Shown here piece after piece: positions 4,164 through 54,200 of a stretch of 64,000 nt of DNA; within the stretch, counting starts at the first letter, position 1, and every line of letters begins with the position of its first letter. The stretch is from Ulota crispa (taxonomy: Eukaryota > Streptophyta > Bryopsida > Orthotrichales > Orthotrichaceae). The notes under the pieces are model-generated. The model saw only the letters and a program-made list of their open reading frames with translations, made no database searches and was not told the DNA's origin. The position numbers and the translations under genes were made by a program. The stretch is taken from assembly GCA_963920765.1 (NCBI GenBank), contig OY987244.1:6016501-6080500 (forward strand), given 5' to 3'.

Positions 4164-4165
4164 TA

Positions 4166-4479
4166 AGGTAGGAACACCCATAAGCATTAGTTTAAGGGTT
4201 TTGAACATGATGATTATTGATAAACATCTAACAAATTATAGAATCTTGCTAGCAACAAAAAAATAATGAGTTTGCACTTTTGAATATATTATTTAGATTT
4301 TGTGAGAATAAGTTGTGAATTTTTAAAGAGCAAATTGCCATTGTACCCATAACCAACACTAAGGTTTCATATTCACATGTTATACAACCTTGTAATTATA
4401 TCTGTTTACTTCTACAGATTTTCCAAGATTTTAGAGGTGATGGTTATGAGGACACTAACGCTTATCGGTGTTCCTACCT
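4166..4479 (+). mobile_element. MITE family M, copy 1 (TA target duplication)
   Basis: A 314-bp element with inverted ends AGGTAGGAACACC...GGTGTTCCTACCT, flanked by TA on both sides (4164-4165 and 4480-4481). It has no ORF of note. The terminal repeat contains AG|GTAGGA, a usable 5' splice site, and the interior holds ACTTCTACAG, a usable 3' splice site. Related copies are at 32070-32382 and 42137-42451, a partial one forms the BUD13 intron, and a short remnant lies near 13800-13833. The TA duplication suggests a Tc1/mariner-type or similar transposase. Confidence 0.85.
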
Positions 4480-4754
4480 TAATCCAATAAATCCAACCAT
4501 CTAATCCATAACATCATTTAACAAGGCAAAAGAAATAATCCCCTAAATAAAATACCAGAGACCAAGTATTTTGCAACTTTGCAAAGACTAAAAAATGCAA
4601 CCTTATGAAGTAGATGCACTGGCAATCAAGCAATCAAACAATCAAACAACATGCATAACAAGTGTTAACACGAAAAGAAGCATCTTAATACCAATTACAA
4701 ATCACTTTTTCCCCATTTCTCAATGAATAAAGACTCCGCACTACCCCTAATAAA

Positions 4755-12300: not shown

Positions 12301-15300
12301 TCGGTGCCCAAATGGGAATTTAGTAAAAGGAAAGAACAGAATCAGAGCCCGACAAATCCATTTAGTTGGCTGTATAACAATGCCTGCATAAGTTAGTCTG
12401 CAAGTAAGGGTACCTTCTTTTTCACTTTTTCAAAAGTAGAGCAACTTAGAATTTTCATCAGAGCGATGAAAATACAAAATGAGCAACATCTTGTATCTTA
12501 TCTAAACATATCCACACGTTTAACAATAGCATTTTCTTTTGAAGCAAAAACCAGCTACTTTGACATACTTTGGCGTTCATAACTTTGATTTTTATGAAGT
12601 GGCAGCATTCATGCGCCAATGCCTGGTTCGTGAAATATCTCAAAAAGGGCTAATTTCAATCCACAAATTAGGATTGGTATAGATCTTGGCTTTACCTAGT
12701 GCAGCCAAAAACAGTGCAAAAGTAATGGCATACAGGTACTGATTTCAAGATTGACGTTTTGTTTAAAATGAAAAGAACTTGATATTCATTACTTAGGAGA
12801 AAAACCCAATTTTGGGACTTTTGAATCTCATGTCCCTGAAAGAGTATTCAGTAAATACTTAAGGATGCAAAAACTCCTCGAAAAACTCAAAACTTCCAAA
12901 ATCATGTTTTTTTCCAAATTCATGGGTACTGCATTAAAGACAAAAAAAACACTTTTTTTTCAAAATATTTTTGTTCTTTCTTGTGAATCTCAAACAATTT
13001 TTCTTTTACAATAGAAATTCAAAGTTTACATTCTGATTTTCACCTGAGATGGAAGGGGTAAGGACACCATCGCCGATGACGCAACACGTGCCAATAAGAG
13101 TTACGGTGAGCAGCAAGTGCTGCATGAACCGACTCCGCTCTAGAAACTCCTTTAGCTTGGCGGCACGCTTGGCAGACAGTGTCGGCAAATCTAGGTGGTA
13201 CGTTGACAGGTCACGGTCCTCTGGCACTTGGTTGCTCGCTAGGTTGATCTTTGCATATCGACAAATCAGTGAATACAGCGCAAACGTGCCACCTGCAAGA
13301 ATCAAAACTCCACAACTCAGTCCACTCAATTTCAAACTCTAGAGCAAACGAAAACATTGATGATCTAGATCTCATGTCACTCTCCGGTTTTAAAGTAACA
13401 ACATCCCTCTCCAATAATGTCCCCATCAACTTTACCTATTCTATCAATGATTCACAAATTCCATAAAAAACTTGGTTGTGGATGACAAACTGATGGTTTT
13501 GGGTGACTAACATGAAAAATTTTGAGTGCCCTATCTCACTATCTAAGAACTCCTCAAGTTAATATTATAAGCATATGAGCACACTAAAAGACTTCACTAA
13601 GCGTTTAGCTTTTTAACATCTCCTACACACAACTATACATTTTCAATCATTTTGGACTCTGGAAAAATCTTTGTGAACAAGGGCTTGCAATTGGGACTAT
13701 TAAATGGATACCAATATTCTTGAACTCCCCTTCCTTTCTAAACAATTTTTTTTTTTTCAAAGTTCATCAAATTGATTTTCCTACTCCAAAACCATTAGTT
13801 TCATGCTTATGGGTGTTGCTACCTTAATACCGACAACAGCAGACTTTGGTTTCAAAGACTTTGCAGTTGCAGTAAAATTGGGTTTGGAGGGGAGAGGTTT
13901 TGAGTACCGTTGCCGTTGTCGTTGGCTTGGAGGACAATGTGGCAGTACTTGATGAGGGGGATGAGCGTGAGCGTGTAGATGATGAGGCACAGCACCCCCA
14001 GAATGTCCTCGTGAAGCGCCGGAATGTGGTTGCCGTTGCCATCTGTTTGGTTGAGCACAAACGTGCTGGCGTACACGTACAAGGGCGATGTGCCGATGTC
14101 GCCATAGATCACTCCGATGCTCTGAAACGCTAGAAGCGCTATGGTGGACTTGGACAAATTCTGCACCCAACAGCATATTAAATAAATTAGGAAAAACAGT
14201 ATATTTTAGGACTTTCATTATTTTTGTCACTATGTACAATTTAGCATATTACAAACAAATAAGCGTGTACTTTCTTCTTGTACAACAACGAAGTCTCAGT
14301 GATTGCTTCCAAGGAATTTAAAAAGTCACAACTTTGAGCTGTAGCTATGCCTATGTTTCCTGTATGTAAGATTAAGGTGGAGTATAAATTGATCCCTCCG
14401 TTTCTCCTAATTTACCTAATATGGTGTTCACCCGTTAGTCACACAGCCGCTTCAGTTACCATCCCCCCCAACCCCCCAAAAAATCACATTGATCCAAAAT
14501 CTGCGGGCAAATTATGCTACAATATTCGAGAATCGATCTACCAATACTTTACTTTTGGGACCCACTACGTCACTATAAAAACGACTCTTGATTTCCTTCC
14601 CTCGACTTGGCTTGTTAAGCTAAATTAAGCAAACTTGTCATGAAACCAATGCCACCGACAAACTTATCCAGCGGTCAAAAGATCTTAGAAAAGCAAAGAA
14701 TTGTCAAATCATCGAGCAAAAGTAGACAAGCGAGAGAGATCGTGCATCCAAAGTCTACAGCAGTGCTAGAATTTGAAGGTTTGTCACAACATGACGCTCA
14801 AACAAATGTAACGGACAAGGCTATTTTAGAGAGACGGCAGGGTTATGCAGATTCTGCAATAGCAAGCCCTCAGGTGAGCTATTTTGCACCTGTCCGCTTT
14901 CTGTCAGGGGGTCGAACATATTTGGCTAGAAAGTGTCATAATCGGCAGGGGAGCTGACGATGAGCAAAATACGCCCCCTTGGTCTTAAAGTGAACGTAAA
15001 ACTGAGAGCCATGAGTGGTGAGTCAAGAACTGACTCTGAGCTCAAAATCATTGAAAAAACCCAAAAATACGACAAACTTTTCAATAAACGAAAGTTTAAA
15101 GTACACGTAATATAGGGCCTTCTGTCCACGATTAGACAGGTGAAATTTAATATTTTGACAAAGAATCTTGGCGCACGACTCACAATTCCCCACTACTCAT
15201 GGTGTAGCATTCCCCTGACGAAACTGAATTTTCAAACTTTTCTCTAAGCTTGTGGGTACAGAAAGCAACGAATCGCCACATGGTCATGGGTAGAATTGTC

Positions 15301-30973: not shown

Positions 30974-32069
30974 CCATTTTCTTGTAGATATAAGACTCTA
31001 GAAACCAATTCAAGAATCCCTCAATATAACATTGTAGAAACTAGTTCAAGAATTTGAGTCATTCCATTGGTTTACTCTGGTGTATTTCAAATTGAACCAA
31101 TAATTGGGCCCTAGTGTAAAGTGGCTGTTTGTTGACCCTTGAACATCAAATGGGTGATTGTGCTTGCCCTTCTATAGTGCTTGTTACAATGATTGGTAGA
31201 TGCCCATACATTATGATATTGTTTTCTAATATTGGAAGTCAATAGTACATAGTGCCCTCATGAAAATTGCAAAAAGGACAGCATGAGACCTAATACCGTG
31301 TCTTTGAGTCTTTTCACAATTTGAGTTACCTAAATATATGAGTATATTTGACAAGGTTGATTTTATCAGATAAAAAATAGCTTTTAACCTTTTACTTGTC
31401 ATTGGAACCAAAGGACCTCAAAAAACGTCCTCCTCAGCATTTAGGGTTTAACCCCTGACCGCACAGCCCAAATTTCCGGAATAGCAAATTTAGCAGAGCA
31501 GCATCCCATCGAATGAGCGTAGCAGTCACGATTTTGACATCCACAAAAAATGGACCGTACAAATGGGTTGTGCCCTTCAGTCTGAAGGTCCCCTGAAAAT
31601 TTAGATCCCTTCCCCCGTACCAAAATGGAGATTGTAATAGTCAAATGGGAGTTGACCTCTGGTGCTTTGTCCCATTTTGGCACTTCGGAAAGAAATTTTG
31701 TGCTGACCCCTTGGAATTCTGCCCCAAAATTTTGTAGTACCATGGATCAACAAGTTATGTGAATGCCCTCCAATTTTCAAAATTTTTGGACAAAGTTTGC
31801 ATGCTCATTTTGACCAGGAATGCCCGCTGCCTCAAAGAAGTGCCCGGGAACAAGGTACGACTCTGACTGACATGTAAACTGTGCTCTCGGAGGTATTGTT
31901 GAGGGAAAATGCCACCGTGGATCTCTCGTGTGCAAGACTGTTGACATGGAAGAAAAATGAAAGAAATGAAAGAAATATAGTCCCAGAGGATGCGATGATG
32001 AGACATACTGCAGAATTGCAAATCCAAATTTGGCATATCAATACCGTAAACTTTTCAGCACAAGCTATA

Positions 32070-32382
32070 AGGTAGGAGCACCCATAAGCGTCAGTGTCCC
32101 CATAACCGTCACCTCTAAATCTTGGAAAATCTGTGGAAATGAATAGATGTAATCGCAAGGATGTTCAACATGTGAATATGAAATCTTGAAAGTGGTTATG
32201 GGTGCAATAGCAACTTGCTCTTTAAAAATTTACAACTTATTCTCACAATATCCAAATAATACATTCAAAAGTGCAAACTCATTTTTTTTCTATTCCTAGT
32301 AGGATCCTATAATTTGCTAGTTGTTTGTTCATAGTCATCATGTTCAAAACTCTTAGTTTGACGCTTATGGGTGCTCCTACCT
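32070..32382. mobile_element. MITE family M, copy 2
   Basis: AGGTAGGAGCACCC...GGTGCTCCTACCT, 313 bp, flanked by TA on both sides. Relative to copy 1 it lies in the opposite orientation. It is an intact, perfect-ended member. Confidence 0.88.
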
Positions 32383-33640
32383 TATGCTCATTGAAAAATT
32401 AACAGATTGATTTTTGCAAAGTGACTTGTTCAATAGCAAAGAGTGAACTCCTGCCATTTGTATATCTTGCGCCATGAAGGCTAGTAACCCACCGGCTGTT
32501 GAAGGTCTTCTCGGATGCCCTACAACTACGGAAACCAGTTTTTCTCATAATGCTATCCAATTGTGAAGACATGGGCGACCATTACAACTTTGGACCCCAC
32601 TCCATCTAATCAACCCAAGTACATGTACTTTTCTATACATAAAGCCATCCAAAAAGACCCCACCTGCAATCACAACGCCACTATTAACCCCTAACCGTCC
32701 AAGAGGACGAAAATTGTCCTTTCAATGCTGAAGACACACCCCCAGGGTGGAAAAAGATTTTTTTTTCAATTTTTTTTTCTTGAAAGTGGCTAGAGATGTG
32801 CCACATCACTCAATGCCAAAAATAGCTACTTTCAATGCCTCCATACTTTTTAAATATCAATTTATAAAGAGATGTACAAGGTCCCTGCTGCCCTTTTTAT
32901 GAGGGCAAGATACACTATTGATTTTTCCTTCTTTTAAGGAGAATATGATCTCTCTTGGAGAGATGTCACAGGCTGTCCACTGCCCATGAACAGAGCACTC
33001 TCTCCTCTCTCCTCGATCTGAGCCACGGGTTCAAGGTCAGTCCTTTAAGGGTTAAAGGGGCGATATTATCGCCCGGGGGCGCTCGGGGGTTAAGGCCCGT
33101 GCAGCAGGATTAGAAATCCAAGCTTGAAGTGCCAGAGTGACGATCGCGACAAACAAACTCGCCGGGTTACGAAATCGGACTCTTCCGATGGTGAAACAGT
33201 TTGAACGAGCAGAGATTGCGAGAACGCGTTGTAGATTTAGGACTTAGGGTTTTAGTATTGTGGGTTTCGGTGTGTTGGGAGGTGTTCAATTCCGTTCTAA
33301 CCACGCTCGGCACATATCAACTCACACCCTTCGACAACGTCAGTCCTTCATGGCGACGACGACGCACATGCTTCCGCTCTCGATCTTCTCTCTTCTCCTG
33401 TCACTCACAAGTCCTACGCACCCTAAAACCGCACTGCTCTAGTCCCGCTCTCGCTCCTCCAGATTCCCTTCGTCCTCAGAAAACAAACCACCATTTCCAG
33501 ACACTTGCTCTCCAATCACGCTTCGAGTTTCACGAAACCGATCTGTGCTCGCGCCCGATGGCGTGGCACGCTCCCGATTTTGCACTCTGTCCCTAAATCT
33601 TTAACCCTAAATTCTAAAACCCTAAAACCCTAAACTTTAT

Positions 33641-37300: not shown

Positions 37301-40300
37301 CAGCCTTGCGGATGAGCTTGGGCAGGTGACCGTGGGAGCTAATTTGTATTTAACCCCGGCAGCATCACAGGGCCTTGGAGTTCATTTTGATGATCATTGT
37401 GTGTTTGTTTGTCAATTAATGGGCTGCAAACGGTGGAGTGTGTACCCTGCTCTGGAGAATCTCCCTCGTCTTTATTCTTTCCATCCTCTCTCTGTAGATC
37501 TTCAGGAAAAGCTTGATGTGCTGCACTTTGATCTTCAACCTGGCGATGTTTTGTACATTCCTCGAGGATTTTTGCATGAATGTCGGACTATGGAAGCTAA
37601 AGATCTCCCGGTTGTAGATCATGCTGGTTTTGCCAGCAACAGCTCCGAATGGCATGGCGCTTCTCTTCATGTATCCTTCGGTGTCGAAGTCGAACCTGCG
37701 TTTGAGTAAGTGCATACTTCATTGAGAATATTTCATGGATACCCCTGAAGTTTGCAATATTTACATAGATACCCCTGCTTTTGAGTGAGTGCATACTTCA
37801 TTGGGACAGTTTTATGAATACCCCTGAAGTTTGCAATATTTACATAGATACCCCTGCTTTTGAGTGAGTGCATACTTCATTGGGACAGTTTTATGAATAC
37901 CCCTGAAGTTTGCAATATTTACATAGATACCCCTGCTTTTGAGTGAGTGCATACTTCATTGGGACAGTTTTATGAATACCCCTGAAGTTTGCAACATTTA
38001 ACATAGATACCCCTGCTTTTCCAGAAATTACACAAATACGCAAGGACCATCACTTTTAGGCATTTATTTGTTGTGTTCGTATATTCTTCATAACCAATGT
38101 TGAAGAAGGGAAATGTAATGAAACATAAAAGAAGCAATGTATGCACAAGGGAAGAAGGGAAGTGGCATGCACAACAAAACAAATGCTGGAGAGTTTTGGT
38201 CCGAGGGTGTTTGTGTCATTTCCGGAAAAGCAGGGGTATCTATGAAAGGATTGCAAACTTCAGGGGTTTCCATGAAATTTTCCCTACTCCATTTCTCCTT
38301 CACTGCAAATATTTTGGAGCAAAATTAGCACAAGTAGCCAGTTGGAAACTTGTGTTTTTTTTCAGTAGTATGAGTAGGTTGCAATTGAGCACATACAATT
38401 GTTCATCGTTGTTTGTGGTGATATAGAGTTTGGACCTTTTTTAGTAATGTATTTTACAGCATGATCAATGACATTGGAATAAAAAGAACATGAGGTTCCA
38501 ATGGGGCCATTTATTTTGAGACAGAGGGAGCAACGTGTTTTACTCAGTTTAACGGTTCACATTCTAACCCTTGTTGAGCTCCTTGGCACCTTGCTGTGTG
38601 CAAGTTTTTGAGCTTGATTTGAACTGCCATTTTTCTTGACATGTCCTTGCTTTTTGCTTTGGTTTCGTTAAATTTGGTTTGATTGGACTAATTTTCTGTT
38701 TCTGATAGTGTTTCTCAAAATGTCCGGTTACCAGTAGAAATACCCAAACGCTACGAAGGCCAATGGAATGAAAATTTTGTTTCTTTATTTTTGGCATTAT
38801 TAAAGTACGTATCACGGTCATTGGATATGTAGTAATTCATTTTTTGGGTTTCTTTTTTGGGAAAGTAACCGGCCTAACCCTTCTGCTGATCTTGCAGGTG
38901 GGAAGGCTTGTTGCACATTGCGCTTCGGTTATGGTTTCTCAGGACTTTGCAACAGGAAGCTGAAAACAATAACAATAAGACCAACAACAACACTAACTTG
39001 AGCCACGTGTACGAAATGCTTCTCCATGTGATTATTAAGAGCGTGGGTAGCAGCTCCCAGAGTTTTCGCAAAGCGTGCGTTTTTCTTACAAGCCCTACAG
39101 GTCAGATTCTACACTTTAGTTGTTTAGTTTTCTTCTGGTTAGGACCAGTCAGCACTTGAAGTTGATTTTGGTTAGCCTCTCAGTGTTTTGTTGTAAGTCC
39201 TCTTATTGTTTCAATCTCTTAGCCATTCATAAATCATAAAACTCAAAAGTCCTCAACCCTCAACCTTAAGTCCTTTGTAGGAAACCCTAAACCCTAAACC
39301 TTAGGTTATGTCAAGCACCCTAAATCCTACACCCTGAACCCCAGTTTGTTTTTTTATAGGAAAATTTTTATGGATACCCGTGAAGTTTGCAATATTTACA
39401 TAGACATCCCTGCTTTTTCAGAAATGACACAAATACCCTCGGACCAAACTTTTCACAACCCTTAAAAAAAAAATAATAATCTTTGCGTAAGTTTATAAAG
39501 GTAAATGTTCGGTGCTTGTCCACGCAACTCTTTTCCTAATTAAAGTTCTAATATCCACTTTATCTCCACTGTAGTATAAGTCAAACTTCAAAGTATAAGT
39601 CTTATAATTAAAATTATCATACCTTTGTAATGAAATTTACTTTCACGCCATGTAACCTTTTCTCTATATATAATCACAAAATTTACTTTACTACTAGTGA
39701 TAAGTGGAAATCAAAATAAGAAGACTAAAAATAATTAAAGCCCCTCTATTTTTATACAAGGAAAAACACTATAAAATAAGGCTAGACACATAGAAAAATT
39801 TATTATCTTTGAGCGTTTGGATATCTTTGGTTATATAATATATCTCGTGGTTTTTTATTCATTTCACTTTATATTGGTTATTGCACGTAGAGGGTTTATA
39901 TTGCTAGTTATTTGTGGTCTACGCTTTGTCAATATGGCGGATATTCCGATAGGTCAACTGCATAGAGTTCAGACGTTGTGTAGAACATTTCCACGTAGGA
40001 TGATACCCACATCACCAGATACTCAGGTACCTCGATTTCCACCACTGATAGGACTGTTTACTAACCTGGATGAGTATCCGGATGCCAATGATCCAACATA
40101 TTTGGACTTAGACTCTGCATGCTTCAAACATGCTTACATTAGATTTGCTGGACTTGTTTGGCATTATGGCCCGTCGGGCAAATTGCAAGGCCAAGGTCAA
40201 GGTCAAAACCTTGACCAATTTGATGATTGGTTGCACATTATTTCTGATCCCATTGTAGTGAAGATCTTTGCAGGTACTAGCGATCAGAGAGGCCTTCAAG

Positions 40301-43105
40301 GATAGAGTTGTGCGCTTTCTAAGGTCAGAAGTTAATGTAGTGTTGACTTGTGGTTCTAGTAGCTTGACGCTATCTAAGAATCAAGTCAATATTCCAATTT
40401 GGGCACTGTCACGCACACTCTATATTCTTGGAACCCGGGTCTATAGGGTTTAGTTCTTTGGTAGGAATGGTAAACACTGTTTTCTGAACCCAAGTTGGAT
40501 CATTTTATACCGTGGTATCAGGCAGAAACAAATCGTATTTCGCATCCAACAACACTCCATGATCAAATAGGTTTCTTCCTAAAGGAACAAGCTCACTCAT
40601 CCCTACCTGATACCGTTGTATAAAGTGATCTAACTTGGGTTCAGCAAATGGTATTTCCCACTTCATACCAAAGAATTGAACCCTACAGACCAGAGTTCCA
40701 AGAATATAAAGTGTGCGTGACATTGCCTAAATTGGAATGTTGACTTGGTTCTTAGATATCGTCAAGCTACTAGAACCACAGGTCAACACTACATTAAACT
40801 CAGACCTTAGAAAGTGCACAACTCTATCCTTAAAGGTCTCCCTCTGATCGCTAGTACTTGCAAAGACCTTCACTACAATGGGATCAGAAATAATGTGCAA
40901 CCAATCATCAAACTGGTCAAGGTCTTTGACCTTGATCTTGCAATTTGCCGCACTGACCATAATGCCAAACAAGTCCACCAAATACAATGTAAGCATGTTG
41001 AAGCATGCGGAGTCCAAGTCCAAATATGTTGGATCATTGGCATCCGGATACTCATTCACGTTAGTAAACGGTCCTATCAATGGTGAAATCGAGGTACCTG
41101 AGTATCTGGTAACGTGGGTATCATCTTACGTGGAAATGTTGTACACAACGCCCAAACTTTATGCGGTTGACCTATCGAAATATTCGCCATATTGACAAAG
41201 CGTAGACCACAAATAACTAGCGGTATAAACTCACTATGTGCAATAACCAATATAAAGTGAAATGAATAAAAACCACGAGAGGCCCAAGCCAGAAAATTCT
41301 TTGACTGGCTAAGCAATTATACTTCCGCCGTGGGTCTAATCCTCGAAGGCAAAGAGATTCGAGGTAGTAATATGGACATAGCGCATACTCCGCACACAGG
41401 GGAAATACTAGAAGACGAAAAATCCACACAGACTAATATTACCGAATATATAAACCAAAGATATTTAAACGTTGGTTATGTCAAGCAACCTGAACCCTAG
41501 TTTGTTTTTTTATAGAGAATTTTTTCATGAATACCCCTGAAGTTTGCAATTTACATAGACATTCTTGCTTTTTCAGAAATGACACAAATACCCTTGGGCC
41601 AAAATTTTCCAAATGTTTGTTTTGTTGTGCATGCCACTTCCCTTCTTCCTTTGTGCGCACAGGTTGCTGTTTTTTTTGTTTCATTACATTCCTTTCTTCA
41701 AGATTGGTCATGAAGGAAGTACAAGCACAATAAACAAACGCCTGAAAAACTATGACCCAAGGGTATTTGTGCAATTTCTGGAAAAGCAAGGGGGCATCTA
41801 TGTAAATATTGCAAACTTCGGAGGCATCCATGAAATTTTCCCTTTTTTACAAACCCTAGGTTGTTGTAGGTACTTTCAAATCTTGCCTTCTACCATAGCA
41901 AGCTTCTTCTTTCCCATAAACCCTAAGCCTGTGTCACGTTTTTTGACCATGAAATTGCATTGAAAGGTTGTGCAACAGTTGTTTGAGGAATGCAGATGGT
42001 GATCCTTAGGTTATGTCAAGTACCCGAAGTCCTACGCCCTAAACCGTAGTTTGTTTTTTATAAACCCTAGGTTGTTGTAGGTACTTTCAAATCTTGCCTT
42101 CTACCATAGCAAGCTCCTTCTTACTTATAAACCCTAAGGTAACAGCACCCATAACCGTCAAATTAAGGGTTTTGAACATGATGATTATTAATAAACATCT
42201 AGCAAATTATAGGATTCTATTAGCAAGAGAAGAATGATGAGTTTGCACTTTCAAATGTATTATCTGGATACTGTGAGAATAAGTTGTGAATTTTTAAAGA
42301 GCCGATTGCAATTGCACCTAATATCAACACTAAGGTCTCATGTTCACATGTTGTACATCCTTGTAATTACATCTATTCACTTCCACAGATTTTCCAAGAT
42401 TTCAGAGGTGATGGTTACGGATAAAGTGGTGGTTATGGGTGTTTGCTACCTTAAACCTTAAACATGAGTCACGTTTTTTTACCATGAAATTTCATTGAAA
42501 GTTTGTGTGGAATGTGTGAGGAATGCAGATGGTGATCCTTAGGTTATGTCAAGCACCCTAATCCTACACACCCTAAACCTTAGTTTGTTTTTTATAAACC
42601 CTAGGTTGTTGCAGGTACTTTCAAATCTTGCCTTACCATAGCAAGCTTTTTTATTACTCATAAACCCTAAACCTTAAACCTGCGTCACGTTTTTGACCAT
42701 GAAATTGCATTAAAGTAAGTTTGTGTCAAACGTGTGAGGAATGCAGATGGTGATGCTGAACGTATGTTTCGGACCATGCTTTTGGAGGTTCGTCAATCAG
42801 CTGATTACCGGCATGCTGTGGAGAAGTGCCGGGAAGAGGGGGTGGCTTGGCTGGACTGGTTACGGCACTTGCCAGGCGGTGATTCCAAGGCAGGTTGCCA
42901 TGTCGGTGTCGGTGGTGGTGTCGGTGGTGAAGTGAAGGAGAGTGCCTTGGTGTCTGTTGTGGACAGGTTTTGTGAAGAAGCGCCGTTCTTGGAGTCCGTT
43001 GCAGCTCAGGAAGTGTTGCTTTGTAAGTTCAGGAGTTGCCGACAGAAGGTCTTGAATGGGCTCTTGGCTTTGCATCGTGGGCGTCAAGACTGTAATTTTA
43101 GCTGA
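34395..43105 (+). CDS. JmjC-domain ribosomal oxygenase-like protein (MINA53/NO66 family), five exons
   Basis: Probable Fe(II)/2-oxoglutarate-dependent oxygenase; family members hydroxylate histidines of ribosomal proteins. Exons: 34395-34663, 34971-35249, 36476-37705, 38898-39100 and 42747-43105. They total 2340 nt, 779 residues, phases consistent. Residues 1-90 are Ser-rich then basic. About 90-400 is helical and repeat-like (LLAIASYEVSCRLAENPEVL), resembling ARM-type helices. The JmjC core begins near 465: ANLYLTPAASQGLGVHFDDH with metal ligands His486 and Asp488, CKRWSVYP, LQPGDVLYIPRGFLHECRT with His550, then SLHVSFGVE. The winged-helix-like C-terminus holds WEGLLHIALRLWFLR. The HxD...H spacing (62 residues from Asp to His) fits the ROX family. 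The start is the first ATG after a telo-box run. Introns are loaded with repeats. NO66 versus MINA53 is not resolved. Confidence 0.87.
34694..34965. repeat. About 58-bp minisatellite in JmjC intron 1, five units
   Basis: The phrase GATCTCAATATTGAATTTTG recurs at 34694, 34751, 34809, 34869 and 34925 (degenerate), each followed by CTGTTTTTTAGGGTTTGGG-like text. Each unit thus carries a polypyrimidine-AG resembling a 3' splice site. The real acceptor keeping frame is at 34970. Confidence 0.85.
35286..36028. mobile_element. Fold-back MITE F, copy 2, split by S4
   Basis: The left arm 35286-35352 (CATGGATACCCCTGAAG...TTCAGAAATTAC) and the remainder 35775-36028 together match the unbroken copy at 8148. 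The gap is exactly the Stowaway-like element S4. Confidence 0.88.
35353..35774. mobile_element. Stowaway-like MITE S4 nested in F copy 2
   Basis: TACTCACTGTCCCTCTAAA to GGGACAGAAGGAGTA, in reverse orientation to S2. The host sequence AAATTACACAAAC is split at its TA, and TA is found on both sides, giving a clean insertion footprint. Confidence 0.9.
37702..38017 (+). repeat. 79-bp tandem array carrying the exon 3 splice donor
   Basis: TTGAGT(A/G)AGTGCATACTTCA starts at 37702, 37781, 37860 and 37939, exactly 79 bp apart. Each unit ends with ACCCCTGAAGTTTGCAATAT...GATACCCCTGCTTT, which is the arm of MITE family F. The first unit includes the last bases of JmjC exon 3 and its donor GTAAGTG; the others carry GTGAGTG. 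Confidence 0.93.
38000..38285. mobile_element. Fold-back MITE F, copy 3
   Basis: The centre (GTTGAAGAAGGGAAATGTAA, GGAAGTGGCATGCACAAC) and right arm (AGGGGTATCTATGAAAGGAT, TTTCCATGAAATTTTCCCTA) are intact. The left arm is part of the upstream 79-bp array. Confidence 0.88.
39358..39455. mobile_element. Fold-back MITE F, half copy
   Basis: Only the left arm remains (ATGGATACCCGTGAAGTTTG to ACCCTCGGACCAAACTTTTC). It lies just before the large inverted duplication in intron 4. Confidence 0.8.
39800..41470. repeat. Large inverted duplication with an unrecognised coding segment in both arms
   Basis: The left arm (about 39800-40520) and right arm (about 40600-41470) are inverted copies around an 80-bp centre. 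The left arm encodes an open frame at 39817-40305 containing DEYPDANDPTYLDLDSACF and DQFDDWLHIISDPIVVK. The right arm encodes diverged versions on the minus strand at 41316-41077, 41080-40727 and 40723-40505. No transposase, reverse transcriptase or other domain is recognised. The arms differ by many substitutions and frame breaks, so it is not a recent copy. It sits inside JmjC intron 4, so it is not part of that protein. An inserted or endogenised sequence of mobile or viral origin is possible but unproven. Confidence 0.75.
41518..41846. mobile_element. Fold-back MITE F, copy 5
   Basis: Both arms are present: TGAATACCCCTGAAGTTTGC at the left and GCAAACTTCGGAGGCATCCA near the right end. The centre contains GGTCATGAAGGAAGTACAAG. 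It follows the large inverted duplication. Confidence 0.88.
42137..42451. mobile_element. MITE family M, copy 3
   Basis: A 315-bp element with diverged ends AGGTAACAGCACCC...GGGTGTTTGCTACCT and TA on both sides (42135-42136 and 42452-42453). The interior matches copy 1. It lies in JmjC intron 4. Confidence 0.85.
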
Positions 43106-45136: not shown

Positions 45137-47000
45137 CTACATATCTGATACAGACCAGAGATAAGCCTCCATCTCGGTTGCCTGTTTCTCAGCCTTAGCT
45201 TTAAACATCTGGTTTTCGAATCCTGTACTTCGGTCCACACCATCCCAGTGGCGTCCAGGTTTGATACCATACCGATTCATGGGAGCTCCAACGCCATTTT
45301 TGAGCCAACTGTGCTGAGGAATAAGCTGTGGAATCATAAACCCCGACTCCTTCATCTCCTCCGACGCGCCTAAATCCACCAACTCAGCAGCTGGCTCTTT
45401 TCTCTTCACAAGATGTGCCATTGGATCACCCCACCGTAGCCGCTCTTTAAACACCTGAAGAACATGAAATCTTAGTGTTAGTTATGGGTACAATGGCAGT
45501 TTGCTCTTCAAAAATTCACAACTTATTCTCACGGTATCCAAATAACACATTCGAAAGTGCAAACTTATTATTTAGGATCCTATAATTTGCTAGATGTTTG
45601 TTGATAGTCATTATGTTCAAAACCCTTAAACTAACGCTTATGGGTGTTCCTACCTTATCTAACTCAGGATCATCACGACTTCGTGCAAATGGCTTCGCCT
45701 TCTCAGCCTCAAGCTCCGCATGTTGCTCCTCCACTTCTCGTTTCTGCGCTAATCCTTTACCCCATTCAAGCGGTTTCACTTCAGGTTTCACCTCGCCTTG
45801 TTGCTGCCTCAACAACTCCTCTAAACCTTCCAGTCGCTTGCCACGCTTATCTCGGTAAATTGTTTCAGCAGTCCGACCTCCACCATCCATCTCCTTCAAC
45901 CTTCTCGCCGCCTCCTGCTTCTTCTTCACAAGCTCGGCAGCACGCTCGGCTTTGCTCATGCTCAGCCCTGCTCGCCCGCCATCGGTCATCGTCACTTTGC
46001 CTGGATTAGGATTAGGGTCAGGGTTAGGGTTTGGTCTTCTTCTCGGAGGTGAGGAGTCCATGGAATTCGATCCAGACGGTTTCCTCCGAGGAGGCGAGAC
46101 ATCAGCAGACTCAGCTCTCGAGTTCCTCCTTCTCGGAGGACTTGCATCCCGTCTCTTTCTCGGAGGCGAATAATCAGGAGACTCGGATTGTGGTTCAGAA
46201 TTAGGGTTAGGGTTTGGCTTCCTTCTCGGAGGAGAAGAATCCATGAAATCCGATCCAGACGGTTTTCTTCGAGGAGGCGAGACATCAGCAGACTCAGCTC
46301 GCGAGTTCCTCTTCCTTGAAAGATTTACATCCCGTCTCTTCCTCGGAGGCGAAATATCAAGAGACTCCGGTTGCGATTTAGGGCTAGGGCTAGGGCTTGG
46401 CCTCCTTCTTGGAGGTGAGGAGTCCATGGAATCCGATCCATTCGGTTTCCTCCTCGGAGACGAGACATCAGCAGATTCAGCTCGCGAGTGAAGACTTGTA
46501 TCCCGTCTCTTTCTCGGAAGTGAAATATCAGGAGAATCAGACTCTGGTTTAGGGTTTAGAGTAGAAGGAATCCTTCGCGGAGAGATGTCTCGTCTCGGAG
46601 GAGAAACATCAGGAGAGCCTGCGCGTAAGGTTTCACTTATCTGCGCTTTTCGATCGGCATACTTGTTGTTGTTGTTGTTGTCCACTGTACTCCATCCACT
46701 GCCGTCATCGCCAATGGACATATACGGTCGATGTTGCTTCACTCGCTCCATTTGATGCATGCGCTTCACGTCCACGTCTTCGAGCACTTGAGGTTCATCA
46801 CCCTCCTCCACCTCTGGCTCGTCTGAATCCTCGTCGATGTTCTTCTGCCAAGCTGCATCGTTATCTACAATGATCAACCCTGCCGTCGTCACCTTCGCTG
46901 CTGCTGCGACTTTCCGTTTCTTCTTCGACTTCTTTGCTTGCTTCTCCTCGTCGGCAACGGATTGGTACTTTTTCAGGTAGTCTTTCAACGACGTCGCCAT
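45137..47000 (-). CDS. BUD13: BUD13 pre-mRNA splicing factor (RES complex), two exons
   Basis: Subunit of the spliceosomal RES complex that aids splicing and nuclear retention of unspliced mRNA. Exons on the minus strand: 47000-45654 and 45454-45137. They total 1665 nt, 554 residues, phase 0. The N-terminus MATSLKDYLKKYQS is typical of the family, followed by a KKSKKKRK basic patch. Residues about 147-327 are three tandem RS/PP-rich repeats (DISPPRKRRD, RAESADVSPPRRKPSGS, SMDSSPPRRRP). The conserved C-terminal domain has FARSRDDPELDK, then in exon 2 RLRWGDPMAHLV, IPQHSWLKNGVGAPMNRYG, KPGRHWDGVDRS and EAYLWSVSDM at the stop. The only intron (45653-45455) is made of MITE M sequence. Length and both termini fit the family. 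Confidence 0.96.
45455..45655 (-). mobile_element. MITE family M, partial copy forming the BUD13 intron
   Basis: On the minus strand the element starts AGGTAGGAACACCCATAAGC right after exon bases GATA. Its first AG belongs to the exon and its GTAGGA is the 5' splice site. It follows copy 1 through AGTTTAAGGGTTTTGAACAT and GAGAATAAGTTGTGAATTTT to CCCATAACTAACACTAAG. Then it diverges to TTTCATGTTCTTCAG, the 3' splice site. The right-hand third of the element is missing. The intron is 199 bp. Confidence 0.88.
46005..46560 (-). repeat. In-frame tandem repeat of about 58-61 codons in BUD13 exon 1
   Basis: Three units each encode DxSxPRKRRD, SRAESADVSxPRRKP, DSSPPRR(R/K)P and a Pro-alternating tail (NPNPN or SPSPS). 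The tails are encoded by telomere-like CCCTAA or CCCTAG runs, for example near 46010-46035, 46198-46216 and 46378-46402. Confidence 0.85.
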
Positions 47001-47766: not shown

Positions 47767-49265
47767 TACTCCCTTTGTCCCACTATAAAGCTCCAAATTA
47801 GACATAGTTCTTGTCCCACTAAAAATTCCTTTTTGCTAATTTTAGTTGTTGAGAAAGCATTTGTCATGTTCAATGATCTCATGGGGGCAAGAACCCTTTA
47901 GTGCCTGGTTGACCACTTTTGGGTTGATTTTGGTACTTTGTGGTTCTGTCATCTTTGTTTTATTTAATTTGCAAAAACACAAAGCGTAACGGAGTTGGGG
48001 CATCAACTTGTGCTCCTATTGGAACAAATTTCAAAGCAAGGCATAAAGAAACACGGTAGCTATGAGTGTTTTACATATGAAGTTGGGACTCTCATATGGG
48101 TATAACAAATGAAATACTAATTTAGTGCAAATGTGACGTGGCCCCAAAGCCCACATATTGCACCCAGAGTATCCAATGCTAGCTCTCTAGTAGTTGTGCA
48201 AAAGATGCATGGTTTATTTAGAAGTTCTACTTGTGGCGTATTTCAACTACAACATTGTGTATTCCATGAAATCTTAGGCTCCAAAGGTTTGCAATGCTAA
48301 ATGTGGGACCTTGTACCTCAAATGACACCCAATGTGGATGATATAGACTAATCAAATTTTGTGGAAACATGTTCCATGCATGCCATATTCAATTGTATAT
48401 GTGTGGCCATGTTTGTATTCTTCCAATGCTCAATTTCACAAATCATGCCGTGAAATGCATAGATTGACTTGAATTTTGTAGTTTTTTTTAGAAGTGCAGT
48501 AACCTAGAATGGGGCAATAGCCTCTATGAATTCCACCACTATCAAAAGTTTCAATTGCACAATTGACACTAAGTAATTAGAGAGTCTCACGTTTTTGCAC
48601 AACAAGTTTTTTTGGATCATCAAGCTTCTCACAATCCTCACGTGGAATCGTACAAGTAGATCAAACATTTTTTTTATATACATATTGCCAAAGTTTATAG
48701 CTTTGATATGTCCAGTCCAATCTGATTTTAGAACCATAGATTTTACCCTTGAATGTCTTTTGTAGACCATATAGTGAAAATTTGAGGTGCCCCCCCCCCC
48801 CAAATGGATGACGGTCACTAAGGGTTAAGCAATTAGAGAGCATTCCTCTTCTTCCAAGCTTGGCCTTGCCCATATGAGGTACCATTGTTGCTACCAATAT
48901 TTAAATCATCAATAATGAGGAGCAAATAACATGTACAAGTATGATACTTTTTGCATGAAATTTGGGTGCCCCATCAAAGCTGGACATTTTGCATACAATT
49001 CTTAGGTGATATATTGATTCTAGAATGCATATGTCATTAGTACAAAGACAAAATAACAACGAGCTGGCAACATTTACAAACTATGTACAAATATGATATA
49101 TTTAACATGGAATTTGGCTACTCAATTGGCAGCTTGCATACACAACTGGCAGATGAATTACTTTTTTTGGATTGCATGTCTCACTAGAAAAACTATTGAA
49201 AATGCAGTTAAGTTAATCCCTCATGGAGAAGTTTTATAGAGCTTCATAATGGGATAGAGGGAGTA
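47767..49265. mobile_element. Stowaway-like MITE S5, interrupted
   Basis: The left end is TACTCCCTTTGTCCCAC and the right end GGGATAGAGGGAGTA. The left part runs to GGGGGCAAG at 47891 and the element resumes with TTAAGCAATTAGAGAGCA near 48825. The middle is a nested insertion. The right part also contains a local duplication of the AACATTTACAAACTATG region. Confidence 0.82.
47892..48826. mobile_element. 0.93-kb insertion nested in S5 with AACCCTTAGTG-like ends
   Basis: The left end AACCCTTTAGTGCCTGGTTG and the right end GACGGTCACTAAGGGTT are imperfect inverted repeats. The disrupted host site is GCAAGTTAAGC, so the target was TTAA, as in piggyBac-type insertion; the left TT appears lost. It contains a run of 12 C at about 48789-48801. 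No transposase is seen. Confidence 0.65.
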
Positions 49266-49713
49266 CCTACTTATTCTCAAAAACCCCAGTGGGGGAAAAA
49301 TCAAAGCGTCCAGAGACAATAGGGAGTACCTATTTATTCACCCATAGTATCGCATCCATCCAAACTAGCGTTCCAAATAGCAGTAATAAATTTGGCTAAA
49401 TTTAGCAAAATTTCTATCTAAAAAATGGTTGCGCTAAAATTCTATTGTAAAAACAAAGAGAAAATTTTAAAAGTAGCCAAAATTTTAAGATGCAAAATTG
49501 CCTTCAAGGTGAGGTGTGATCTGACGTGCTCCCTTGTCACAAATGGGACCTGAGATTAAGACAACTTGAGTAGCCATCAATCATATTTGATTTCCCCCCA
49601 CCTAGCTATAATGCAAAGTGTAAATGTGTTTTTTATTCACTTGCCCTCCCTCAAACAACTACTTGTAGTTATTGTCTCATGGCAGAGTTTGGTGCTTGTA
49701 CAAATGTATTAAA
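49266..49713. other. Spacer between S5 and S6
   Basis: AT-rich, non-coding. An isolated AATAGGGAGTACCTA near 49319 looks like a Stowaway end fragment. Nothing else is recognised. Confidence 0.5.
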
Positions 49714-50291
49714 TACTCCCTCTGTCCCAATATAAAACTCCAAATTAGGCATAGTTCTTGTCCCACTAAAAAGCTCCCTTTTACCTATTTGAATTGTTGA
49801 GAAAGCATGTCCAATGATCTCATAGGGGCAAGTTAAGCAATTAAAGAGCATTCCTCTCCTAACAAGCTTGGCCTTGTCCATATGAGGTACCATTGTTGCT
49901 ACTAATCTTTAAATCATCAATAATGAGGAGCTTGCAACATGTACAAATATGGTACTTTTTGCATGGAATTTGGGTGCCCAAATGGCAACATTAAAGCATG
50001 AGATTTTACACACACTTGGTAGATGGTATATTGATTCTAGAATGCATGAGTCATTAGTACAGGGTCTAAAATAATGAGGAGCCGGTAGCCTTCACAAACT
50101 ATGCACAAATTTGATACTTTTTGCATGAAATTTGGGTATCTAAATGACAACATAAAAACTTGAGATTTTGTAGATATTTGGTAGGTGTATATTGATTCTA
50201 GAATGCATTTGTCACTAGCATAATGACTAAGAATACAGTTAATCCCTCATGGAGACGTTTTTTGGAGCTTTATAATGGAACAGAGGGAGTA
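49714..50291. mobile_element. Stowaway-like MITE S6
   Basis: TACTCCCTCTGTCCCAA to GGAACAGAGGGAGTA with TA duplications. It is longer than the typical copy because the ACTTTTTGCATG...GATTCTAGAATGCAT segment is duplicated in tandem, as in S5. Confidence 0.88.
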
Positions 50292-51293
50292 GTCTTTTAG
50301 TGGCTTCTTGCTAAAATTGTTAGTGTACACTTTGCAAATGTCCAAGTTTAGCATTATCCCTAAACCCTAAAACAACTACAAAAGATTGATATTAGACATC
50401 ACCAATTCACATAATTGAAGAATATATGAACTAAACTTAAAGGTTGCCATTTATAACCTAATAAGCTACCATGCATGAAGCTAAAGGTTCTTAGGCAAGA
50501 AAAAACTTATAAACAAAATACTAAACTAAACAAGAAAATATTGCAACTTGCCTACTACTAAAATTCAAGGTAGGTTGCAAAAAATCCAACCTGCAACCCA
50601 AGTCTTTAGCAGGTAAAACTAAAAACCAAAAATGAAAATAATAGCGCTAGTTCCAAAGTATAGTGGTGCCTCGATAAGACGAAGGTATCCGGACAGCATA
50701 TTCATTTTGTGTAAGGAAAACATTCATTATAACCAAACACATCTTTTGTAACTCCCCAGCCGCCAAGGACAATCATCTCCTTCATCTTAGATAAGCGTTT
50801 TTTCTTATAAAAGTTCATCTTAAAGAGGCACTACTGTAGTAAGTTACACCCAATAACCCATCCTTCATAAATCATCCATTCGGACGAATGAAACAATTCA
50901 TCCACTCCTCCTCTTCCTCGTCCTCGTCCTCCCGAACCTGTCCGTTCTTATGGGAAGCTGTTGTGATGCAATCAAACCTTCAACCCCGCCGTGTCTCCGA
51001 CGACACAGGTTTTTCGGCCACATTTCAAGCATCGTCACTACAATTGAATGAACGTTTACGAGCCTCCGAGCTTGACTTCTGCCGAATCCTGACGACAAAC
51101 TCTGCCGAATTTTGACGAATTTCAAACAATTCTGCGTATTCTAGGGTTAGGGTATGGCGATCATGGTTGGCTGGGATTAAGCCACTCTTGGAATTCATGG
51201 TGTACAAGAATCTACAGCGGAAAAGAGGGAGAGGCGGAAGAGGATAACTTAGAAGAAGTACAAGAAGGAATTCAGGTGTAGTGTTTTACACCA
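50292..51293. other. Intergenic and TACO1 upstream region
   Basis: From 50292 to about 50880 there is AT-rich intergenic DNA. From about 50880 GC content rises. A CTAGGGTTAGGG telo-box-like motif lies near 51142, about 150 bp before the TACO1 ATG. The short ORFs here overlap on both strands and are not supported. Confidence 0.5.
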
Positions 51294-54200
51294 ATGCAGG
51301 TGGTTTTGATGCCGAGTGGTGTGTTGCGAGCGATAGTGCCGCGCATTCTCATCATCAGAGCCTGCTACCCCCGCAGTAGTTACGGCTCTGGTGCAAGCTT
51401 GTTATCGAGTGTTCGCAGCAGTATCAGCTGTAATACAACAACGTCGTCTCAGGGAAACGGTATTTCATCTCTTACTTACTTGCTTTATAAAAAAATTCAA
51501 ATGTATATTTTCCTAAACCCTAATTCCAGTTTTGTAGCGTCGTATGCACGGGATTGATTTCTGGTACTAGAATTTGACGGGCTTCTACGTATAGTCTGGA
51601 CTGGTAGACTACGGAACAGGAGATTGTATATAAGATTCTGCAATTTTGTACTCTCCGCCTGTCTTGGCTTTTACCGTTCTGCTTAACTTAGGCATAAAAT
51701 AGAGTACAACGATGAAACTTTTCACAGAGATGTGTGAAATTAGGGTTTGCCAGAGAGGGAGAATGGTCAATTGAACTTCACCATCTGATTTTTCGCGTTT
51801 TTGATTTTGCGGAAGCACGGGGCATAGTTCAATGGCGAAGCCTTTGTGAGACGAGATGTGAATTAGCGTTTGCAAATGAGGGCAGACTGGTCAATCGTTG
51901 CTCTCCGCCTGGCTTTTTGCGATTTGGGGAGGCATGAAAATCTGCACAACGCTGATACTTTTTACAGACATGTGTGAATGCTGAAACTTTGCACAGAGAT
52001 GTGTGAAAATTGGGGTTTCAAGAGCATTTTTGCGTTTTGCGGAGACATGAGACTCTGCACAACGCTGAAAATTTTCACGGATATGTGTGAAATTAGGGTT
52101 TCAAGAGCATTTTTGATTTTGCGGAGGCATGGGACATTGTACAACGCTGAAACTTTTTACGCAGATGTGTGAATGCTGAAACTACTTTTCACAGAGATGT
52201 GTGAAATTAGGGTTTCAAGAGCATTTTTTGATTTTGTCGAGGCATGGGACATTGTACAACGGCTGTGATATCTTTGTGGGAGATGTGTGAGATTAGGGTT
52301 AGGGTTTTGCAAGAGAGAGAGTGAGAGAGAGGGGAGAATGGTTCTCAAACGGGGGGAGTGGGGGGTGGGGTTGCTGTATAGCTGGCGAGAGTGCCAGTCA
52401 CAGAGCTTCTGACATGCAATGCCTGGGCAGTCGGAGAGATGGCAGCAACAGCAGCAGCAGAAGCAGAAGCAGCAGCATGCAGTGGCTGAAGGTAGGCCGA
52501 GGGCGTGGCAACCTTGGCTCTCGCCACTTCTGGATTTTGCCACCAGTGCAGATGGGCCGGCGCTCATCCAAAATTGCTACAAAAAAGGTACTCCCTCTGT
52601 CCCTCTATAAAGCTCCAAATCAGACACATTTCTTGTACCACTACAAAGCTCCCTTTTGCTAATTCTCAAACGCTAAGAAAACGTTTGCCATACTCAATGA
52701 TTTCATGGGGGTAAGTACAGCAATTAGAGAGCCTTCCTCTCTTAGCAAGCTTGGCCTTGCCCATATGAGGTACCATTGTTGCTACTAATCTTTAAATCAT
52801 CAATAATGAAGAGCTGGCAGCATGCACAAAATGGTTTTGTTTTGCATGGAATTTGGGTGCCCAAATGGCGACATCAAAGTTGGAGATTTTGTATACATTT
52901 TGTAGATGGTATATTGATTCTAGAATGCATGTGTCACTATTTCAAAGACTAAAAACAAGGTTAATCCTTAGCAAGGAAGTTTTTTGGACGTTTTAGAGGG
53001 ACAGAGGGAGTATAAACCATCTCTCAGCCCTTCACTTCCCGTGTTCTATCAAACAAGGGCACATCCACAACACTGCCCTTGTCCTTTGTGCTACTCGCCT
53101 TTTGTAGTACTTGCTGTTGCCCTTTGGTTTGTGCTACCCTTTGCCCTTCATTTATTCCGCTCACCGTTCAATCTTTGGAACTTCCAAGAGCCCTAACCAA
53201 GTTGCTCACTTGTGTCGGCGTTGTCTCCCTTCTGGCTGCACTTTCTAGCATGCACCTTGTTGTTCAGGTGCTTTTTTTGTGTGGCTATGGAGGCAGACTA
53301 AACATGGTTATAATTGCAAAATCTTAATCTGCTAACTTACCATATAATAACGTTGCAGCATTCCCTGCGTCTTATTTAAACTAGACCCTTATTTGTAACT
53401 GTTTTATGATCTTGTACCCTCCCACTAAAGTTGATAGTTTTTCAATTATTTTTTGTACCTTGGGACCATAGTCCTGCACAGTTTTTGTGTGAATGTTTAG
53501 TCAACAAGCAAAGGCGAGCTATGATTTTCAAACGCTTTTATGCGGTTGCACATTCAGGGAGCACAAGACAAGAAAAAGGCTAAGCTCTATGGCAAGATGG
53601 GAAAGCAAATCGTTACAGTGTATGTCTTTCTATATCCACACTTTTGTAGCAGAGCCAACTTGTTTGTCTCATGAATGGAAGTTTCTGGACCCTCAAATGA
53701 GATCTCAGATTTGGACTTTTGTGTTTATATCGGGTTTAATCACTTTTTGATATAAATAATTATATCACACCGTGTAAACCCTTATACAATTGGCTAAATA
53801 AACACCTCCAAATGTGTTTGAGGGTTGTATGCATCATACAAACTTTTTCTTCGTTCAATCTACTTTTCTTGAGAGACCGTATGAATGCCTTGAATAAAAC
53901 TCATTTGGATATCATAAATATGAAGTTCACAGACATCCACATAAACGAGTTCAAGAACATGCTATTTTCCCAAGTGTTTATATGCAAGTAAGCATAAATC
54001 TCATTCTATATAAACAGTTTTTGAGAAATGACCTTGTCAAAGTCTGGAACCCCCCCTAATAAGAATATTTGAGGCTGTTCTGGTGTGCAGTGTCAAAGAG
54101 GGAGGACCTAATCCAACTGCAAATGCAGCTTTAGCACAATTACTACAACTAGCTAAAGACACTGATGTTCCCAAGGAAATAATTGAGCGCAATATGAAGA

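Follow-up and report, generated by a model that had tools for sequence, protein, structure and literature searches.

The only intron in the coding sequence of BUD13 in the window (the whole stretch of 64,000 nucleotides analysed, part of contig C3 of a 274.8-Mb genome) appears to be a de novo spliceosomal intron produced by the insertion of a MITE, and the family to which this MITE belongs behaves here as an introner family; judged from the sequence, we would put the probability of this reading at roughly 0.9. The first-pass annotation had proposed such an origin, and the proposal is supported by four further introns of the same family in three other genes (two in a nuclear type-II intron maturase, one in arginase and one in eIF3g): the five introns, in four unrelated genes, share one element start, AG/GT (slashes mark splice sites), and the joined frame is kept in 5/5.

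The BUD13 intron starts at AG/GTAGGAACACC within the terminal repeat of the element and is immediately preceded by TA; its earlier description as a sole intron of 199 bp starting at AG/GTAGGA agrees with the coordinates (45653-45455) and with the alignment to the family (Table 1). It begins at base 3 of the element, whose AG completes the codon in GAT-AAG; left unspliced, the frame runs into a stop within the element, and the joined protein matches Pfam Bud13 (PF09736, 1.4e-38, residues 379-536) across the junction. No second PF09736 match was found in the genome at E <= 0.001. The copy agrees with the family consensus at 185/196 aligned bases, which places it within the spread of the family, and lacks the right third (105 bp) of the element. 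The statement that the intron follows the element for nearly its whole length is thus correct for the intron, of which 194/199 nt are element, and not for the element, whose right third is lost. A T in place of the C of the consensus creates the sequence CTAAC at a distance of 23 nt from the 3' end of the intron. In the simplest reading, the right 105 bp would have been deleted together with the TA, leaving the target AG behind a 3-base TTC filler, whereby the acceptor would have become TTCTTCAG; as the right end of the element is gone, it is from the remnant that we infer this order of events, including the history of the acceptor. Elsewhere in the coding region, positions 46009-46557 hold three tandem 183-bp units, the later ones sharing 84% and 66% identity with the first, which encode SPPRR-type repeats.

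Table 1. Features of the window, and family introns at other loci; slashes mark splice sites.
Feature	Position	Strand	Description
BUD13 exon 1, coding part	45654..47000	minus	449 codons; last bases GATAAG
TA, left copy of target duplication	45656..45657	minus	within exonic GAT-AAG
MITE remnant in BUD13	45460..45655	minus	consensus 1-209 of 314, 13-bp internal deletion; first AG exonic
BUD13 intron	45455..45653	minus	199 nt, GTAGGA...TTCTTCAG; MITE = 194 nt
CTAAC, branch-like site	45477..45481	minus	A lies 23 nt before intron end
TTCAG, BUD13 acceptor	45455..45459	minus	sole part of intron unaligned to element
BUD13 exon 2	45137..45454	minus	105 codons + stop; first bases GTGTTTAAA
MITE family copy	4164..4481	plus	full-length, TA on both sides
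MITE family copy	32068..32384	minus	full-length, TA on both sides
MITE family copy	42135..42453	plus	diverged
MITE family end fragment	13787..13826	minus	apparently inside native intron of potassium-transporter gene
Maturase intron A	L022		minus strand, 276-582 of the locus; 307 nt; ...AAGGA-AG/GT(...)ACCT-GAAG/TGGAG
Maturase intron B	L022		minus strand, 969-1692 of the locus; 724 nt, 289 = element, enlarged by another insert; ...GGCTA-AG/GT(...)CCTACCTAG/GCTGTT
Arginase intron	L019, contig C7		988-1714 of the locus; 727 nt, 319 = element, nested insert; ...ACGCA-AG/GT(...)ACCT-CAAG/AGCAAC
eIF3g intron	C7:17409932-17410247		316 nt; left exon ...KELAATK, right exon GFAVAGEKPPTDDD..., in frame

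The family was aligned in a single orientation from 49 full-length copies at loci retrieved through sequence similarity or through their end motifs. Its consensus measures 314 bp, with perfect inverted ends of 26 bp, each reading AGGTAGGAACACCCATAAGCGTTAGT, and the full copies are 85.7-97.1% identical to it; 42/49 have TA on both sides, in keeping with the earlier view that the TA before the BUD13 element is the target duplication of the family. In the window, the 13-mer AGGTAGGAACACC with at most two mismatches has 6 matches against 1.2 expected, a number reached in 0/100 shuffles; genome-wide there are 4987 exact ends followed by TA, with AG next in 370 of these. The family is short, has inverted ends and a target duplication, and is present in high copy number, as is typical of MITEs; the TA duplication is also that of Tc1/mariner elements, yet two exonic copies carry GA on both sides and CA on both sides, respectively. 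The base that follows the ends CCTACCTTAAG is T in 136, G in 97 and C in 92 of 370 cases but A in only 45, possibly reflecting a target preference beyond TA. The family end at 13787-13826 was considered as a splice border and rejected, since it seems to be interior to a native intron of the surrounding gene, which we take to encode a KUP/HAK-type potassium transporter (name and exon border judged from a motif). Two further repeat regions lie in the window: a near-continuous inverted repeat of ~1.1 kb at 40000-41124, with arm pairs 81-95% complementary, which is possibly a large fold-back element, and several repeats bearing TACTCCCTCTGTCCC-type ends at 47767-53012, presumably Stowaway-like.

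The layout of the element suggests how an insertion could directly become an intron. The inverted end, read inwards, would supply the donor, AG/GTAGGA; its complement at the opposite end would supply a branch-like ACTAAC and a partly pyrimidine-rich stretch ending in CCTACCT; and the target would supply the AG of the acceptor. Insertion at a dinucleotide before AG would duplicate this dinucleotide, yielding NN-AG/GT...CCTACCT-NN-AG/; excision between the slashes would give back the original exon. The element should be usable in both orientations, its ends being inverted repeats. AGGTA stands at the start, read inwards, of 46/49 left ends and 47/49 right ends, and an exact CTAAC is found near the right end in 25/49 full copies and, as its complement, near the left end in 20/49. 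The BUD13 copy has the orientation of the consensus, those of arginase and maturase A and B the opposite one, and in these four fully known introns CTAAC lies 23 (twice), 25 and 27 nt from the 3' end. Three of the introns have AAG as their acceptor; BUD13 has CAG and maturase B has TAG, both of which look like later improvements. Both element ends are present and fit the proposed route in arginase (CA-AG/GT...ACCT-CAAG/), maturase A (GA-AG/GT...ACCT-GAAG/) and eIF3g (TA-AG/GT...ACCT-GAAG/); maturase B fits it with 2 nt of its right duplication lost. The first-pass annotation's suggestion that splicing at the element's own donor and at the duplicated target AG restores the frame fits all four of these copies.

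A scan for long open frames running up to an element end covered the window together with the loci retrieved up to that point (241 left and 250 right ends); frames of at least 55 codons reached the element end at 20/241 left and 15/250 right ends. This led to two loci with recognisable proteins, L019 (arginase) and L022 (maturase), the long frames at element ends that remain besides these and those of L036 and L090 (see below) being judged by eye. L022, on contig C10, is recognised by PF01348 (8.7e-12) as the gene of a nuclear type-II intron maturase and has two family introns; the maturase shares 80-88% identity with its five best relatives. At junction A, 15/16 homologues are collinear, P0256 not reaching it; junction B shows no gap in 14/16, with one extra residue in P0249 and P0256, a fragment, unaligned, and downstream of it the lengths of the homologues differ by a few residues. 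P0248 and P0253, from contigs of 115 and 368 kb, are collinear at both junctions, the way in which these proteins were called not being stated. The joined arginase aligns without gaps over 241 residues to 6vsu (Arginase 1, mitochondrial; presumably the Arabidopsis enzyme) with an E of 9.4e-125, and matches Pfam Arginase at 6e-64; the genome search gave a single arginase, in the form of two matches flanking the element, and no second one. The insert nested in the intron copy at L019 (~1055-1460) is a different one, with GGACCGACTAGGTGGACACC-like inverted ends. That such elements are ordinary insertions which destroy their genes and are not spliced would agree with the in-frame stop they introduce in BUD13, maturase and arginase, the case for splicing being built on reading frames; it is very improbable, however, given that the flanking exons are open and conserved (241 ungapped residues to 6vsu in arginase, 80-88% identity in the maturase), that the genome search found no second BUD13 or arginase, and that the frame fits in 5/5. 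We infer that the spliceosome uses the five predicted junctions.

Were exonic copies retained only at sites where an AG comes after the duplication, introns would be expected among the right ends that bear a dinucleotide other than TA and then AG. Such 'AAG' right ends number 17 genome-wide, including L019; 11/17 were looked at, and 2/11 are identified coding joins, arginase (L019) and eIF3g (L117 and L121). The eIF3g copy is known from its two ends, which lie exactly 314 bp apart; it departs from the consensus beside the left end, and its flanks are unequal, TA on the left and GA on the right. The left exon matches Pfam eIF3g at 4.5e-10, and the joined frame matches a PDB eIF3 subunit G in a gapped alignment that spans the junction (E 5.7e-6). 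The joined fragment also matches two paralogues on contig C1 (residues 1-88 and 1-72), each in one open frame; over 90 bp, both can be aligned to the joined flanks on C7 with no gap, so that for eIF3g the coding sequence is found uninterrupted in two paralogues, as expected of an introner target. These empty sites are read directly from the sequence, as are the copies, their boundaries and the restored frames; no other single observation argues as strongly that a family copy interrupted coding sequence, and they are compatible with its exact removal. A dispersed MITE might sit at one exon end by chance, the more so in a family with 4987 exact ends; the identical AG/GT register of five introns in four genes and the exact eIF3g empty sites leave next to no room for this. 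The first-pass annotation had thought it notable that the host was a splicing-factor gene; this looks incidental, the family introns outside BUD13 being in genes for an arginase, for an initiation factor and for a type-II intron maturase.

For the maturase and arginase, the uninterrupted state of the insertion site rests on the collinearity of the proteins. The BUD13 proteins place the window among mosses, the best named relative being that of Ceratodon purpureus (76% over the C-terminal part). Among 120 homologues listed, the spacing from PFA to GDPMA equals that of the joined protein in 115 and is two residues shorter in 5, with ferns and Selaginella among the named ones. A 143-residue query piece of BUD13 retrieved 176 proteins, exon-like fragments included, of which 120 were listed. 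Near the moss junction, which follows query residue 67, eight of the listed proteins have a break in homology, with at least 8 unrelated residues upstream, within positions 55-64, and one more has it at 76; none breaks at 65-75. Fragments break at R/DDPELDK and at HLVK/, yet continue across LDK/M: P0168 (Arachis), P0190 (Tripterygium), P0177, P0189 and P0197 start at R(K)/DDPELD and continue across LDx/M, and P0189, P0197, P0201 and P0226 continue beyond HLVK (HLAK) into unrelated sequence. The junction methionine is also the exact start of six fragments (P0193, P0194, P0195, P0201, P0203 and P0226), which alone would equally fit an intron at this place; other fragments from Camellia and Arachis cross it (P0172, P0173 and P0168). 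At least some flowering plants thus seem to have BUD13 introns near the moss position and not at it, although how the proteins were called is not stated. The flowering-plant fragments support a BUD13 site that would have been uninterrupted before the insertion. As the BUD13 of the window has neither of the two flowering-plant introns, its coding part is otherwise intronless. At most, P0006, P0009 and P0017 (contigs of 13.8, 4.5 and 30.8 kb) hint that other bryophytes have an intronless BUD13, the calling of these proteins again not being stated; a search for further BUD13 loci of mosses among GTDB and viral contigs returned no relative. Two homologues show peculiarities of their own: P0007 (Physcomitrium) ends in NRY-VGALFKHPMIIVKE where relatives have NRY-GIKPGR, which looks like a retained intron at a place where the window gene is uninterrupted, and P0035 (Vanilla) carries a tandem duplication of a block of ~48 residues ending at HLVK, consistent with an exon duplication.

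Because the right end of the BUD13 element and its right duplication are missing, an insertion upstream of an older intron is formally conceivable: the MITE would have landed two bases upstream of an existing donor, splicing would have moved to the donor of the element, and the old intron would have been mostly deleted, its acceptor TTCTTCAG being kept, as might be read from the fact that this acceptor ends 5 nt past the last element base. Such a course of events is quite unlikely, though, since the BUD13 fragments of Arachis, Camellia and Tripterygium have no intron at the codon of the moss junction, the moss homologues are collinear there (some from contigs exceeding transcript size, with the calling of the proteins not stated), the element makes up 194 of the 199 nt of the intron, and the direct route fits the four other family introns.

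The sampled copies mostly show no sign of being introns, as judged from their flanks, from the TAAGG-type copies and from the AAG ends. Among intact TA-flanked copies, read on both strands with at least 20 codons per side, flanks are open in 6/41 readings at TAAG targets against 35/143, and with longer flanks in 3/26 against 29/128, so that coding enrichment at TAAG targets is absent from this sample. No convincing gene was recognised by eye at 20 TAAGG-type copies, and 9/11 of the non-TA AAG right ends were without an identified coding join. L036 and L090 have such a long open frame on both sides of the element; leaving aside the left frame of L090, which consists of element sequence, none of these has a Pfam match. 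L118, with L122 and L123, lies on contig C9 near 16731130-16732116; on its other strand an open frame of 40 codons runs exactly into the donor of an element, behind which lies a second, truncated element; a second exon was not found in L122 or L123, and the frame matched neither Pfam nor PDB. A 33-codon open frame at L125 was likewise without a PDB or Pfam match, and the open frames at L114 and L124 had no Pfam match. L113, L115, L116, L119 and L120 were rejected as coding joins, all three frames containing stops.

On balance, this would probably be the first family of introners in a land plant: the inverted ends of the MITE would form a symmetric splice cassette of donor, branch-like site and pyrimidines, such that insertion before an AG of the sense strand yields a ready-made intron in either direction, and dozens of such introns may exist in the genome. 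With a moss family and empty paralogous sites in one genome, intron gains become traceable in a multicellular plant, and it can be asked whether inverted ends retain their latent splice sites because these conceal insertions from selection.

Among 835 genomes of animals and land plants, the survey by Gozashti et al. 2022 (PMC9860276) reported introners in only two groups, both animals, and none in land plants, and this dearth enters an argument on the forces behind intron gain. Introners are recognised there as at least four similar introns whose likeness does not come from that of the encoded proteins; here there are five, in unrelated proteins, the eIF3g copy being seen at its ends. The borders of the introns are those of the element plus duplication in arginase, maturase A and eIF3g (with TA on the left and GA on the right in the last), in maturase B after the loss of 2 nt, and in BUD13 at the left end only. 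As in the Introners described in PMC9860276, a repeat family forms introns in several genes and bears the marks of DNA transposons (terminal inverted repeats and duplications); the present family differs in its land-plant host, in its duplication of 2 bp, mostly TA, and in that most sampled copies are without sign of a coding location. From this last point, a large MITE family seems to produce introns as a side effect. In grasses, exonic DNA transposons are known to have supplied splice sites and to be removed as introns, in single events, whereas here five introns in four genes trace to one MITE family. Algal MITE-type introners are non-autonomous inverted-repeat elements which provide one splice site themselves and obtain the other from the duplicated target; the moss family differs in its 2-bp duplication and in its use of both orientations (BUD13 against arginase and maturase). 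Transposon-made introns in Zea and Oryza, among others, appear in a table of PMC3443670, with maize Ds in its references, and PMC9860276 mentions algal MITE-type introners and earlier families with repeats of 3-9 bp. Among the papers listed in literature searches, largely outside subscription journals, titles and abstract openings report no such intron-making family in moss. Within mosses, a comparison is offered by the Tc1/mariner elements PpTc1 and PpTc2, which, according to PMC4054914, encode a transposase, duplicate a TA target and have 33-bp inverted ends; the MITE family shares with them the TA duplication and the inverted ends, of 26 bp in its case, and differs in the ends themselves, which are CAGT...ACTG in PpTc1 and PpTc2 and AGGT...ACCT here.
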